From contig NZ_BLZO01000041.1 in the NCBI RefSeq assembly GCF_014132355.1, positions 1-49,065 on the forward strand: DNA of 49,065 nt. The letters run 5' to 3'. The first letter of the stretch is position 1, and each line of letters begins with the position of its first letter. This DNA is from Okeania sp. KiyG1. GTDB lineage: Bacteria; Cyanobacteriota; Cyanobacteriia; Cyanobacteriales; Microcoleaceae. Below the pieces are notes generated by a model. That model had not been told where the DNA came from. It worked only from the letters and a program-made list of their open reading frames with translations, and made no database searches. The position numbers and the translations under genes were made by a program. Of the stretch, positions 17,331 through 44,600 are shown piece by piece.

Positions 17331-17689
17331 TTAATTATTAGTTGTGAAGTTAAGATTCAGCTATTAACGGTCAGCTTTTCGGTGAGCAATACGCTCGCAT
17401 TCAGCTTTTGAATTAATGAAGCAAGCATTAGTTTAACTTCTACTACATTTTCAACTATATGAAAAGAAATGTAGATGTGGCTTGATAAACTGTTAAGGTT
17501 AAGTGATGGACTTTTTTCACCCATACTTTTAATTCTTGGAAATTTATCAATTGCTTTTTTCTCCTTTTTGTAAGGTAATAAAGCTAATAGCTGATAGCTG
17601 ATAGCTGACTGCTGTTTGCGGAGCATTCCGTAGGAAATGCTTAAGATGAAATATCATTCAAAATAAACAAATCTCTAAAGGAATAAAAA

Positions 17690-21636: not shown

Positions 21637-21723
21637 AAGGGCAAATTTCCCTGTTTATAAAAAAAAATAGCACAAGTTTTTTTTAAAGACCAAAACTTGA
21701 GATAAATCGGCGATTTAGCTAAA

Positions 21724-21780
21724 TTTACCGAAAAATTGGGTTTAAAGCCTCGCCCTTGTAGGGCGACTTTTTATTTTATT
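21724..21780. repeat. Partial family A end
   Basis: TTTACCGAAAAATTGGGTTTAAAGCC matches the ACCGAAAAATT...AAAGCCTC end of family A copies near 27.24, 27.69 and 47.49 kb (compared over short blocks), then turns into GCCCTTGTAGGGC and is cut. Confidence 0.55.
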
Positions 21781-21789
21781 TGCAAGTGA

Positions 21790-21990
21790 ATTGAATATAT
21801 GCTACACTATTATTAGTTGCCGAGGGGCACTCGGAAACTCTAAACGGACGTGGAGGGAAGCGTCAGACTACCGCCAAGGAAGCAGCACCCTGTGTTAGCG
21901 ACAGCTATGCGAAGCAAAGCGTCAACCCGCCGAAGAGCTACGGCTCAGTAGGAATCCCCGTGCCTTTAGGCCGGGGAGGATGTCAAACTC
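21790..21990 (+). pseudogene. 3' end of a decayed tnpB with omega-RNA-like right end
   Basis: One plus-strand frame reads GSVRLPPRKQHPV, resembling C-termini of TnpB proteins as I remember them, but with stops. It includes a hairpin CCGAG...CTCGG (21821-21835) and ends in AATCCCCG, TGCC, TTTA, GGC, CGGGG, a hairpin with one bulged T, then AGGATGTCAA. That is the usual right-end layout of IS200/IS605 elements. A short repeat with GCTATGCGAAGCAAAGCG (21909-21926) interrupts the presumed RNA. No TnpB gene precedes it on this strand. Confidence 0.5.
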
Positions 21991-25193: not shown

Positions 25194-25749
25194 ATATTTG
25201 AAGGAAGAAGAAAGAGGGAAGAGGGAAGAGGGAAGAGGGAAGAAGGAAGACGGGCTAAATATTGAAAACAAGGGATAAACGATAGAAATAAATATCTAAA
25301 ATCAACTGGATAGACTATTTTTAAGCATATCCTCCTGACTCCTCACTCCTGACCAAAAAATAAGGTCTCAACCCTACCCTTTCAAGAGGATGAAAAAAAA
25401 TAAAGTTCAATATTTAAGCTTCTGACTTTCCTACGGAATGCTGCGCAAACAGGTAGAGGTACTGATAACTGATAACTGATAACTGAAATGACTCCTCCTA
25501 AATTTTAACTAGAGCTTGCTGAATAAACTTGAAAGTATTGACTGATATTGGTTTTAGCATTTTAGAGTTGAAAAAAGTACCAGCTTTTCGGCGGAAAAAG
25601 CTCAAAAAGCTAGTATTTTGAGATGATTATGGCAGAAAAATTGAGAGACAATTCTTACTCTTACCTCCCCTCTCATTCCCATTTCTTTTGTCTCCTGTCT
25701 CCTGTCTCCTGTCTCCTACCCCAGCAAAAAGACTTTCCTTGAGCAAACT
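25194..25749. repeat. Repeat-filled spacer after rca
   Basis: No gene. In order: GGAAGAG/GAAGAAGG tandem repeat (25205-25250); a family R short repeat TTTCCTACGGAATGCTGCGC (25427-25450); ATAACTG heptamers (25462-25488); an inverted family F copy (about 25508-25660); and TCCTGTC tandem units (25693-25718). Confidence 0.7.
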
Positions 25750-32197: not shown

Positions 32198-32383
32198 CAA
32201 GGAAGAGAGGATAGGGAGTTATATCATATCCAGTTGAATAGTTAGGGCTATCAACAGTATTAAAATAATTGGAAAAATCAGACACAATTAGACATTTACT
32301 GTGATACACTAGATTTATGTCTAATCTTATTAAGTATACATGAAACAGCAGAACTGCTAGAAGTGCCAACAAAAACAATAATC
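32198..32383. other. Spacer and presumed left end of the third TnpB element
   Basis: Holds CATATCCAGTTGAATAGTTA near 32225 and a small hairpin AGCAGAACTGCT (32347-32358) 25 bases before the tnpB ATG. No gene is seen. Confidence 0.4.
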
Positions 32384-33515
32384 ATGAAATCCTTTAAAAC
32401 TAAGTTAAAACTTAACAATTACCAAAAAACCATACTTGCCAAACACTCAGGAGTTGCTCGTCATGCTTATAATTGGGGGTTGGCAACTTGTATTACTGAG
32501 TACGAAGAAACTAAAAAACGCCCAAGCGCCATCACCCTGCATAAACGTTTAGTAGCTGAAGTCAAATCAATTAATCCCTGGTATTATGAGGTGTCGATCG
32601 GGTGCTCCACAACAAGCATTAAGAGATTTAGAGAGGGCATTTAAAAACTTTCTAACTATTCCTGAACGTGGATTTCCAGTCTTTAAAAAAAAAGGTAGAA
32701 AAGACAGCTTTTACTTAGAAGGAAGTATTAAGATTTTCCAAGGAAACTACATACAATTACCCAGAATAGGAGTAGTAAAAACTTATGAAATCTTACCTTC
32801 TGTACCAGTAAAAAACGTCACTATATCAAAAAAAGCAGATAGTTGGTACATCAGTTTTAAGTACAATTTTGAACAAGATACAACAGAAAAAGTTGGAGAA
32901 ACTATTGGTGTAGATATAGGTATAAATACATTAGCAACCTGTTCTGATGGCAGCAAGTTTGCTAATGTCAAAGCCTACAAACAAGCCAAAAAACAATTAG
33001 TTCGTCATCAACGTGCAGTCAGTAAAAAAGTTATTGGTTTCCTGCGGAATGCTACGCAAACCAAAAACAGACGCAAAGCAGTAAAAAAACTAGCAAAAGT
33101 ACACAAAAAAGTCGTTAATATCAGAGCAGATGCACTACATAAACTCACAACATGGTTAGCTAAAAACCACAGCACCATAGTAATTGAGGATTTAAACGTA
33201 AGTGGAATGCTAAAAAACCATAAACTAGCAAGTGCCATAGTAGATTGTGGATTTTATGAATTTAAGCGTCAACTTACATACAAATGTGAATGGTACGGCA
33301 GTGAATTAGTCATAGCGGATAGATTTTATCCAAGTTCTCAAATATGTTCAAACTGTGGACATCAACAGAAAATGCCTTTACATGAGAGAACTTATAATTG
33401 TGCTAACTGTGGATTTTCCTACGGAATGCTTCCCTACGGGATGCTACGCAAACGCAAACAAGCTGACAGAGACTTTAATGCTGCTGTCAACCTAGAAAAC
33501 TATGTGAATAAGTAG
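32384..33515 (+). pseudogene. tnpB: Frameshifted tnpB containing in-frame short repeats
   Basis: A third TnpB lineage, starting MKSFKTKLKLNNYQKTILAK. The frame breaks near 32597-32610: YYEVS is followed, one base out of frame, by APQQALRDLERAFKNF. The rest is open and keeps RuvC motifs GVDIGINTLA, VIEDLNVSGM and DRDFNAAVNL. Two stretches do not belong to TnpB: FLRNATQT (33038-33061) before KNRRKAV, and SYGMLPYGMLRKRK (33416-33457) between the last CxxC and DRDFN. Both are translations of the family R repeat, kept in frame. The stop at 33513 also seems early, since the next codons read VGEVLTDFKPVEK. It is probably inactive unless frameshifting occurs. Confidence 0.8.
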
Positions 33516-33700
33516 GTGAAGTTCTCACCGATTTTAAGCCTGTGGAGAAGATAAGTTGCAGACTGCGGTCAGTGGTCTTCAGTGTTTGCGCAGCATTCCG
33601 TAGGAAAACAGGAAGCTAGCTCCAAAGCTCATGCGATAGCTTACGCTTAACCGAAGGTTATCATGCATGGGTAAGTTTGGGTAAGTTTAGTAGAACGGAA
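33516..33700 (+). other. Eroded 3' end and RNA region of the third TnpB element
   Basis: After the stop, the same frame continues with VGEVLTDFKPVEK, typical of TnpB tails of this type, then a third family R copy (33584-33606) interrupts it. The likely guide RNA region is thus also broken by a repeat. A GGTAAGTTT direct pair near 33669-33688 may be close to the end. Confidence 0.45.
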
Positions 33701-33793
33701 GAGTCAGTAGCATTCTTTTTTATATTTCATATTATTAAACTTTAATTGTATCTATAATTTTGGCGTTGATAAATCACAAGATGAAATTTTGGT

Positions 33794-33870
33794 AGTGGTG
33801 CATTGTAATTATCGCCAGTGGGAGCATCTTGCTCCCGTTCCAAGTGTTGCTTGTCTCCACTTATCATTAC
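33794..33870. repeat. Single copy of the GGGAGCATCTTGCTCCC repeat
   Basis: Same outer flanks as the triple array at 6.6 kb (GTGCATTGTAATTAT and CCACTTATCATTAC) with one hairpin at 33820-33836. The rest of 33701-33987 has CCCCACACTCCCC tandem units next to the end of the flavoprotein gene. Confidence 0.8.
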
Positions 33871-33987
33871 AGTTGCAGGACTACCAAAATTTGTAAGGAC
33901 AATCTAGCGTAATGGTGAAAATATATATTTTTTAATTTCTCCCCACCCTCCCCAAACTTCCCACACTCCCCACACTCCCCCGCTCCC

Positions 33988-41614: not shown

Positions 41615-44600
41615 ATGATAAAAATTTATAAATGGCATCCTGTTGTTGCTTTAGTCGTAGCATTAAGTACTATAATCAATCCCAAATTATTTGACAATAA
41701 AATCATCAAACCAGCACTTGCTGAAACGACCTTAAAAGATATACAAAATCATTTTGCTCAAGCTTGTATTGAAGATTTATTAGACCGAAGAATAATATCT
41801 GGCTACAATGAAACTCAAACATTTCGCCCTAATGCACCTGTAACTAGAGCGGAATTTGCTGCAATGATTACTAGGGCTTTTCCAGATGCAAAATTAGTCC
41901 GCGACCCGATGAAATTTGTAGATATTCCTCAGAATTATTGGGCTTATAATGCCATTCAAAAATCTTATGAAATGGGTTTCCTATCAGGATATATTGGCAA
42001 AACTTTTAACCCTACTCTCAAGATTACAAGATGGCAAGTATTAACAGCTTTAAGTCAAGGATTAAATTATAGAGCAAGTACATCTGTAGAACGAAATTTA
42101 AACGCAATTTTTGAAGATGCAGAAGCAATTCCTGAAGAGGCAAAAAAATCTATTGCCGCAGCAACAGCAAAAGGTATTGTTGTAAATTATCCAAATGTGA
42201 GAAAACTAAATCCTAATCGAGATGCTACTCGTTCAGAGGTAGCGACTTTTCTCTGTCAATCTATTGCAAATACTGAAACAAATAATGATGGTTTAGTTTC
42301 TCAAGTCCCCTCAGAATACATTGCCAAAATTGAGATAGATACTCAATCAACAACTACCGCAACTGCACCAGAAACTACTCCAGAATCTACGGCAAATACT
42401 AACTCAGAAACTACTCCAGAATCTTCTACAGAAAATACAGATCCACCAGGAATAGTAGAAAGGTTTGGCAATGGTAATTTACAAGCAGAAATTATTTACG
42501 AACAAGCAAATAATACAGATTTAGTCAGCAACTTAAATCTGAAAATTATCAGAGGTGGAGAAATTATTTTAAATGAACCAATACCAGTTAAATCTTTAGC
42601 AGACGACTCAGAATCTGACACTGAAACGGAAGTATTAGCAGGTAGATTTGTGAAAGTACAATTACTAGACTTAGATGGAAATGGAGAATCAGAAGTATTA
42701 GTAGATTTAGTGACTATAAATAATAGTGATGTTGTATTTGATGGTGGTACTTATTCATTGATTTATCTCTACGAACCAACACGAAATAAATATTCTATGT
42801 TGCGTCATTTCTGGGGAAATGTAAATTATAGAATCACAGATTTAGATAAAGATAATATTCCAGAATTTCAAAGTGTTGATAGTCGATTTGCTAACGTATT
42901 TTCTAATATAAATGATGCAAAATTTCCCGTTCGTATTTGGCAGTATCGTCAAGGAGAAATGTTAGATGTTACCAGGCAATATCCAGTACAAATAAATACT
43001 AGCGCTTCAGAACTTTGGCTAGAATTTTATCAGCGTTCTAGTCAAAATAAAAATGTCAAAGGAGTTTTGGCAGCTTATCTAGCAAATAAATATTTGTTAG
43101 GCCAAAAAGAAGATGGTTGGAAATTAATAGAAAAGGTATATCAAAACAACGATCGCGAAGTATATTTTGATAATTTGCGTCAATTTTTAGCAGATAAAGG
43201 TTATGATAGCGATGGACAAATTAGTGGAAATGTAGTTGTGCCTGAGAATTCTACTACAGAAACTCAAGAAACCGTTACCTTTGCAACTAATGAAACGGAA
43301 GAAAATTCACCCCAAGTAACTGAAAATACAGACACAACAGAAACAGAAGAAAACTCTGAAACACAACGACCAGAAACTTCACCTCAAGCAACTACAGAAA
43401 CAGAAAATACAGAAACACCGATAACACTTCCACCAGAAACAACACAAACAGACAACAACCCTGAAACACAACGACCCGAAACTTCATCCCAAGCAACCAC
43501 AGAAACAGAAAATACAGAAACACCGATAACACTTCCACCAGAAACAACACAAACAGACAACAACCCTGAAACACAACAACCCGAAATTTCACCCCAAGCA
43601 ACTACAGAAACAGAAAATACAGAAACACCGATAACACTTCCACCAGAAACAACACAAACAGACAACAACCCTGAAACACAACGACCCGAAACTTCACCCC
43701 AAGCAACCACGGAAACAGAAAATACAGAAACGCAGCCAGATATTAGTAACGGTCTAATCCCTGCACCAAGGTTAGTTCGCTCTCTATCTAACCCGCAACC
43801 AGATTCTGCTTTCTCTGTAACCATTAGTTTTGATGGAGAAATATTAGCTAGTAGTCGCGGTCAAGATATCCAACTTTGGAACTTACAAACAGGCGAATTG
43901 CTAAATACTTTATCCGACCATCAAGCTAATGTGCGCTCAGTAGCAATTAGTCCAGATGGAAGAACTCTAGCTAGTGGAAGTGGAGATGGTACAGTGAAAT
44001 TGTGGGATATTCCTACAGGAGAAATGCTCGTCAGTTTTTGGCATTCTGGAGTAGTAACTGCTGTTGGTTTCACTGCTGATGGCAGAACAGTAATAGGATG
44101 CAGCGCCGATCGCGGAATGAAATCTTGGGATATTTATACAGGGCAACTACTGCACAGGATGAATGGCACTCAACCTATTGCTTTTGGCGCTGGTGGTCTC
44201 CGCATGGCAGCTAGTGGAGGACCGAGGTTTATTCGACTTTGGAATGCAGAGCAAGGACAACTGTTGAGAAATCTTTCTATACCTAATACAAATAATAATG
44301 GTGGCATAGAAGCGATCGCTTTCAGCGAAGATGGGCAAACTATTGCTCATGCGATGAAGGGAGAAAGTAAGGTTTTAGTCTGGGATGTGGAAACTTGGAA
44401 AGTACGTTTTACTCTAGAAAAACATTCTCAGGCAATTAAGGCGATCGCCATTAGTCCAGATGGAAAAATACTTGCTAGTAGCAGTGAGGATGGTAACATT
44501 AATCTGTGGAGTCTTGGTACGGGAAAATTGTTGAGAAGTATTAAAGGTGATGGTGCAATTGTTTTTAGTCCAGATAGCAAACAACTTGTAAGTGTTTCGC

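Follow-up and report, generated by a model that had tools for sequence, protein, structure and literature searches.

The 21-bp repeat R is recently mobile in Okeania-like genomes. Its length and ends are exact, it has a defined target, it is gained and lost between congeners, its copies can be nested, and its copy number is high. We consider it likely that R is a non-autonomous micro-element that inserts at TT^C[A/G] without duplication and spreads in these genomes in the manner of the small dispersed repeats (SDRs) of cyanobacteria, by a route that would involve folded single-stranded DNA. Tiny mobile repeats are already known from cyanobacteria; what is new here is the hairpin-loop plan that R has in common with its sister families. 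The combination of exact pairs of filled and empty sites, a defined target and a signature of C-G-closed GNA/GNNA loops provides a testable single-stranded DNA hypothesis for mobile DNA of some twenty-odd bases, and the 'in frame' look of such inserts in transposase genes can be explained without function.

The window, by which we mean the whole stretch of 49,065 nucleotides of Okeania sp. KiyG1 that was analysed, contains six matches to the core of R at up to three mismatches (17617(-), 25428(+), 33039(+), 33416(+), 33431(+) and 33587(-)), against a mean of 0.00 over 100 shuffles. An earlier reading of this DNA, made from the sequence only, had placed R inside and 3' of a tnpB gene and as free intergenic copies, and the core was recovered at all of these places (Table 1). 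Genome-wide (10.98 Mb, 198 contigs) there are 704 matches at up to three mismatches, and a reversed-pattern control gives 0. The consensus of R is the 21-bp sequence TCCTNCGGAATGCTNCGCAAA. None of a sample of 290 other genomes of the class, all of them from other genera, contains it in exact form; at one mismatch it is present in 14 of 62 genomes of the family (the window's own included), among them all 6 of its genus.

Table 1. Features of the window that bear on R and its host element.
Feature	Position	Strand	Remarks
Different 23-bp micro-insert	17379-17401	+	At the same point, R in three congeners (G043, G041, G042), empty in a fourth (G040)
Intergenic R	17615-17635	-	Exact 21-bp insertion; empty in L280, L282, L285, L287
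Intergenic R	25429-25449	+	Core match; overlapping 18-bp indel vs L281
IS605/IS1341-type element	32248-33698	+	tnpB present, no tnpA ORF; missing from the syntenic place in two congeners
N-terminal tnpB fragment, HTH_OrfB_IS605	32363-32644	+	Frame differs from the rest; Pfam PF12323, E 3e-12
tnpB main ORF, 309 aa	32586-33515	+	OrfB_IS605 and Cas12f1-like_TNB domains; 7- and 14-residue inserts
R, site 1	33040-33060	+	21 bp, TCCTGCGGAATGCTACGCAAA, with G/A as loop bases; L040 and L056 have the exact empty form
Site 2	33417-33458	+	42 bp: outer R split by inner 21-mer CCCTACGGGATGCTACGCAAA at 33432-33452
R, site 3	33585-33605	-	21 bp; lies 3' of tnpB, where the guide RNA is presumed to be encoded
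Micro-insert of another family	33635-33659	+	Net 24 bp; two-hairpin plan AGC-TTAC-GCT / TAACC-GAA-GGTTA

The IS element that hosts the three clustered sites has the empty form TAGTTAGGG^AAGAGTCAG in L280 and L285. A +1 frameshift near 32592-32600 divides its tnpB, leaves the 309-aa ORF without the N-terminal HTH and supports the suggestion of the sequence-only reading that this is a relaxed (pseudo)gene. The nearest solved relatives are an AI-designed RNA-guided nuclease and TnpB, and an Rfam scan of 32200-33900 returned one match, which was sub-threshold. The frameshift change, TCTAAATGTGC to TCGATCGGGTGC, containing CGATCG, is found in three copies from two species (the window tnpB, L036 and L051), and other one-base shifts also come back at fixed places in TnpB paralogues. 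In addition, 6 of 11 paralogues (L034, L036, L037, L039, L040 and L041) carry near window position 33109 an insert of 51-53 bp (GCGGATGCGACCCCGCGACGACG...) of another repeat family, which is, as aligned, mostly not a multiple of three.

The ends of the inserts were read from 11 close paralogues of the whole element and then from nine copies of other genomes. The empty forms are GGTT^CCAAAAAC at site 1 (L040), GGATTT^CAAGC at site 2 (L032 and L058) and CAGTG^AAACAGG at site 3 (L054, L056), and the alignment with insert-free copies, which had been proposed as a check, yields exact ends and no duplicated target bases: against their empty sites the inserts at sites 1-3 measure exactly 21, 42 and 21 bp. 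As had been claimed, neither coding copy disrupts the reading frame of the main ORF. The gain of residues is real as well, but by the exact insert lengths it amounts to net 7 and 14 residues, and the copy described as doubled does contain two R units, but as one 21-mer lodged inside another R, at the TT^C of its second loop. Such nesting is also seen in L097, L180, L237 and L239, with different outer elements.

None of 20 homologues, chosen for open frames, carries either coding insert, in line with the earlier view that these places are normally empty in TnpB. In L051-L058, eight copies from other genomes, none of sites 1-3 is filled, nor is site 1 in L059, a copy that extends over this site alone. 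The sequence-only reading had named as evidence against insertion the presence of the same residues in close homologues of other species. At site 1 this is found in four copies from other Okeania outside these 20 (L176, L124, L162 and L173), whereas site 2 is empty in all 11 own-genome paralogues aligned and in those of the foreign copies and homologues just mentioned that cover it. Site 1 is still to be read as an insertion, since among 85 distinct copies it is empty in 76 and filled in 9. Site 3 is filled in L038, with variant copies in L037 and L049, and the neighbouring micro-insert of another family is missing from the other 11 own-genome paralogues and common to the window copy and L053.

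Mobility was read in the syntenic DNA of five congeners, which are roughly 90-97% identical. Three intergenic places show gain or loss of R between these congeners in a unit of exactly 21 bp: 17615-17635, where it adjoins AGCTGAT heptamer repeats, the equivalent of 17379 (Table 1), and 18795, where R is present in G043, G044 and G042 and the window is empty (GCATT^CAGCG). Over 66 collapsed contexts the target flank is T(91%)T(95%)^C(89%)[A/G](95%), i.e., TT^CR. R itself is at least 91% conserved at each position except for two loop bases N (66 contexts, with which 102 distinct copies agree); picking copies at up to three mismatches inflates this core conservation, not that of the flanks and not selectively that of non-loop positions. 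Mutual information shows some association between loop bases and flanks: N15 is linked with the base three positions to its left at z 4.7, the next value is 3.9, and for N5 no value exceeds 3.0. No rule was found in this association. At the equivalent of 17294, the first hairpin of a sister element is TTGAC-TAAC-GTCAA in L280/L282 (two species) and TTGC-TGAC-GCAA in L286 (a third), which represents either a compensatory change or a separate insertion.

R copies that share a site in TnpB differ, per pair, by 1.3% at non-loop positions and 9% at loop bases, and their 60-bp flanks by 16.4%, a figure partly inflated by a frameshift. Ancient inheritance of these inserts is unlikely, because R is almost invariant while its flanks have diverged by about 16%, some of which is frameshift. 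The nine filled copies of site 1 are scattered on an 82-copy TnpB tree with 8 changes (at least 5 of them forced by starred branches), compared with a mean of 8.7 in shuffles, of which 125 to 144 of 500 are as low; the bootstrap of this tree is not settled. All nine carry the loop bases G/A, which are found in 18 of the 178 copies of the genome's own stretches, and this single variant is not predicted by plain independent insertion and counts against our preferred explanation. Mosaicism of the TnpB copies, conversion over very short tracts or re-insertion at a single position may lie behind the scatter. That site-specific re-insertion or very short gene conversion moves R among TnpB copies at the same place, in a homing-like fashion, is conceivable, although we regard it as somewhat unlikely. 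It would account for the scatter of one loop variant and for the outcome of a flank-only search at nine sites, which, leaving aside artefacts of register at empty sites, returned only R with no more than one non-loop change. Moreover, over the 30 bp to each side none of the nine site-1 copies is closer to another filled copy than to an empty one, and seven are strictly closer to an empty copy (L273 and L034 are ties; L173 and L136 are identical). On the other hand, 76 empty and only 9 filled copies are available as nearest neighbours, within 15 bp L124 is nearest to a filled copy, the different loop variants at other sites fit separate insertions, and the possibility that TnpB copies are mosaic and the unsettled bootstrap also weaken the case.

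Statistically, R and its sister families share a plan of two abutting minihairpins whose TNC/TNNC (that is, GNA/GNNA) loops are closed by C-G. R folds as TTCC-TNC-GGAA followed by TGC-TNC-GCA. The AGC sister set was chosen by its second hairpin alone (AGC-TNC-GCT-AAC), and its upstreams were tested for a first hairpin of 4 bp or more that abuts it. The first stem of this family covaries: 29 of 35 distinct upstreams pass, compared with a mean of 6.7 and a maximum of 15 in 500 half-swaps, with stems that include TTGC, TGGC, TGAC, CCTCC, TATCC and CCCCC. The AAC family gives 7/18 against a half-swap mean of 2.5 and a maximum of 6. The TGC set, to which R belongs, gives 71/128 against a mean of 61.0 and a maximum of 69, and the half-swap control says almost nothing about R because its copies have a single first stem in common. 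Of 109 first-hairpin loops, 99 are TNC or TNNC, as are 31 of the 37 outside the TGC class. When loops were counted in 606 kb outside ORFs, with exact R masked, against one block shuffle, C-G-closed minihairpins were enriched both for TNC/GNA (194 vs 27) and for TNNC/GNNA (99 vs 35). The same loop classes closed by G-C gave 73 vs 56 with three bases and 38 vs 41 with four, and other loops 615 vs 582 and 799 vs 621, respectively. GNA and GNNA loops are described in PMC4686876 as forming extraordinarily stable DNA minihairpins.

The covarying hairpins together with this loop class favour a single-stranded DNA intermediate, and we infer that the folded single strand is what is selected. R would move in the form of a folded DNA single strand, perhaps with an HUH/Y1 transposase or a replication-linked process acting on it in trans. 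Against this explanation stand the absence of R around the RAYT-like Y1 loci considered below, the excess of other four-base loops over the shuffle and the unremarkable folding of the 23-mer, for which nearest-neighbour calculations give z -1.1 to -1.5 for DNA and about -0.4 to -0.5 for RNA; for the nested 46-mer, z is -2.2 and -2.0. A wider proposal, which we offer only tentatively, is that a superfamily of 21-24 bp elements is defined by two abutting GNA/GNNA DNA minihairpins rather than by sequence and transposes as folded single-stranded DNA, perhaps through resident IS200/IS605 HUH transposases acting in trans, and that some of its inserts may re-home in TnpB alleles. The genome has 24 Y1 matches. 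R was absent within about 2.4-3 kb of all seven divergent, RAYT-like Y1 loci (six of them with ORFs of 181-226 aa), around which the genome mean would predict only about 2.6 copies, and a RAYT/REP origin of R was rejected on this basis. Among 10 other Y1 loci (~3 kb), L223 and L228 have one R each and L229 two, at up to four mismatches, which is not telling because the genome copy number is high.

An RNA intermediate has been proposed earlier for SDRs, and the covarying stems of the sister families suit RNA as well as DNA. The hairpins of R could accordingly be RNA folds of an element that spreads by reverse transcription or reverse splicing, a possibility with which the mainly A/G alternation of the middle loop base also agrees. 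We nevertheless hold such a route to be unlikely. GNRA loops are stable in RNA, but in the AGC family all 15 of the four-base loops listed, from copies that are not independent, have the form GNYA when read on the GNNA strand. Furthermore, either strand of the 23-mer folds as RNA no better than shuffles.

The distribution of R was surveyed in 81 stretches (1.473 Mb; ORFs of at least 120 aa), most of them chosen around R, so that all densities are inflated. The surveyed DNA comprises 83.6 kb of TnpB-homologous DNA, 583.5 kb outside ORFs, 744 other ORFs (789 kb) and 21 multicopy ORFs (17 kb). Of 178 distinct copies, 141 lie outside ORFs and 35 in TnpB-homologous DNA (27 of them within TnpB ORFs, 8 elsewhere); the remaining two fall in a DDE-transposase ORF and a polA-like ORF. 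The search for the core in other genes, which had been suggested, thus found it nearly absent from ORFs other than those of TnpB, with those last two copies in 765 non-TnpB ORFs of the surveyed stretches. The R of the polA-like ORF, whose context is found again in L095, appears to lie in sequence that follows an IS605-type element interrupting polA. The polA-like frame of L093 and L095 runs into IS605-type sequence that ends in R-coded residues, which looks as though a copy of a DNA polymerase I gene had been interrupted by an IS element.

These counts also bear on the idea, raised in the sequence-only reading, that R prefers IS605/TnpB DNA as its target. The density of R is 0.42/kb in TnpB-homologous DNA and 0.24/kb outside ORFs, and the collapsed contexts in TnpB and outside ORFs number 17/73 (threshold 4), 16/50 (threshold 6) and 15/39 (threshold 8). 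However, the resulting excess varies from 1.6 to 2.7 times with the way in which copies are collapsed, the stretches were not drawn at random, and the comparison sets TnpB against DNA outside ORFs, not against other transposases. The 21 multicopy ORFs were rejected as a transposase control, as they are, judged by eye, mostly host-paralogue-like. A targeting preference is therefore not borne out and seems to us improbable; TnpB looks tolerant of R rather than clearly targeted.

Within TnpB ORFs, 26 of 27 copies lie in the sense direction. Over the whole of the TnpB-homologous DNA, other species included, 39 of 45 contexts are sense, which by-hand collapse reduces to about 13 sense and 5 antisense sites. 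All three frames of the sense strand of R are free of stop codons, and TAG arises in two of the three antisense frames when the loops are TAC, so that selection or ORF-based counting can account for the sense bias. Because its length is a multiple of three and its sense strand is stop-free, R looks 'in frame' in transposase genes without any function. It would persist in tnpB as a consequence of the weak constraint on high-copy elements, the frame-keeping 21 bp and the stop-free sense strand, and the added TnpB residues would need no function. The alternative that in-frame copies are functional peptide insertions under selection, as proposed for the Rickettsia palindromic elements, has on its side the sense orientation and a 417-aa TnpB that retains all three TnpB Pfam domains with three inserts, yet it is very improbable in view of the varying place and frame of the inserts (SYGMLRK, FLRNATQ, PTECYAN), their near absence from other ORFs, the frameshift in the window tnpB, and a sense bias that ORF-based counting favours and by-hand collapse of the 45 contexts lowers.

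R works like the SDRs of cyanobacteria, a likeness drawn from descriptions rather than sequences. SDRs are about 21-27 bp in size. Elhai et al. are said to have described in 2008 the SDRs of Nostoc and its relatives with nested copies, a common hairpin plan, compensatory changes and a heptamer-repeat context, and SDR4-6 in that work reportedly share a secondary structure backed by compensatory changes. R is likewise very small, dispersed and mobile, with its 704 genome-wide copies; it inserts precisely at a short target, with filled and empty sites between congeners, and shows both nesting and a heptamer-repeat context. The compensatory structure is seen in its AGC sister family, where 29 of 35 upstreams compare with at most 15 in 500 swaps. 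R differs in belonging to the Okeania-like group, and it is not SDR5, since its target is TT^CR instead of HIP1, into which SDR5 inserts according to PMC4390886.

Other known repeats are more distant. The earlier analogy with the Rickettsia palindromic elements holds insofar as R too enters reading frames in frame, but it fails on size and gene class: those elements are described in PMC10969869 as about 150 bp long and located in unrelated metabolic genes, whereas R has 21 bp, uses three different frames with no conserved peptide, and lies in transposase genes and outside genes rather than in unrelated cellular genes. With REP/REPIN sequences, R shares the character of a small hairpin repeat in high copy and HUH processing of single-stranded DNA as a possible route, and PMC6006769 reports REP insertions inside tnpA-REP genes. 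Unlike them, R is found at none of the seven RAYT-like loci, has two triloop minihairpins in place of one longer hairpin, and lacks a conserved GTAG/CGTC tag, with GTAG on its bottom strand solely when the variable loop base of the top strand is A. MITEs are also non-autonomous and present in high copy, but R has neither terminal inverted repeats nor a target duplication and is far shorter.

Further repeats were noticed along the way. The peptide VGANGRSP occurs both in a TnpB and in a RAYT-like protein (L184, L235), which suggests another family that enters genes in frame. At about 21712-21990, the window contains a stretch of some 265 bp, of which the genome holds many copies at 96-100% identity and congeners hold some, and which is probably a recently active miniature element. 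Finally, an apparently coding Thr/Glu-rich repeat at 43300-43530 varies in length by 72 and 90 bp relative to a congener.
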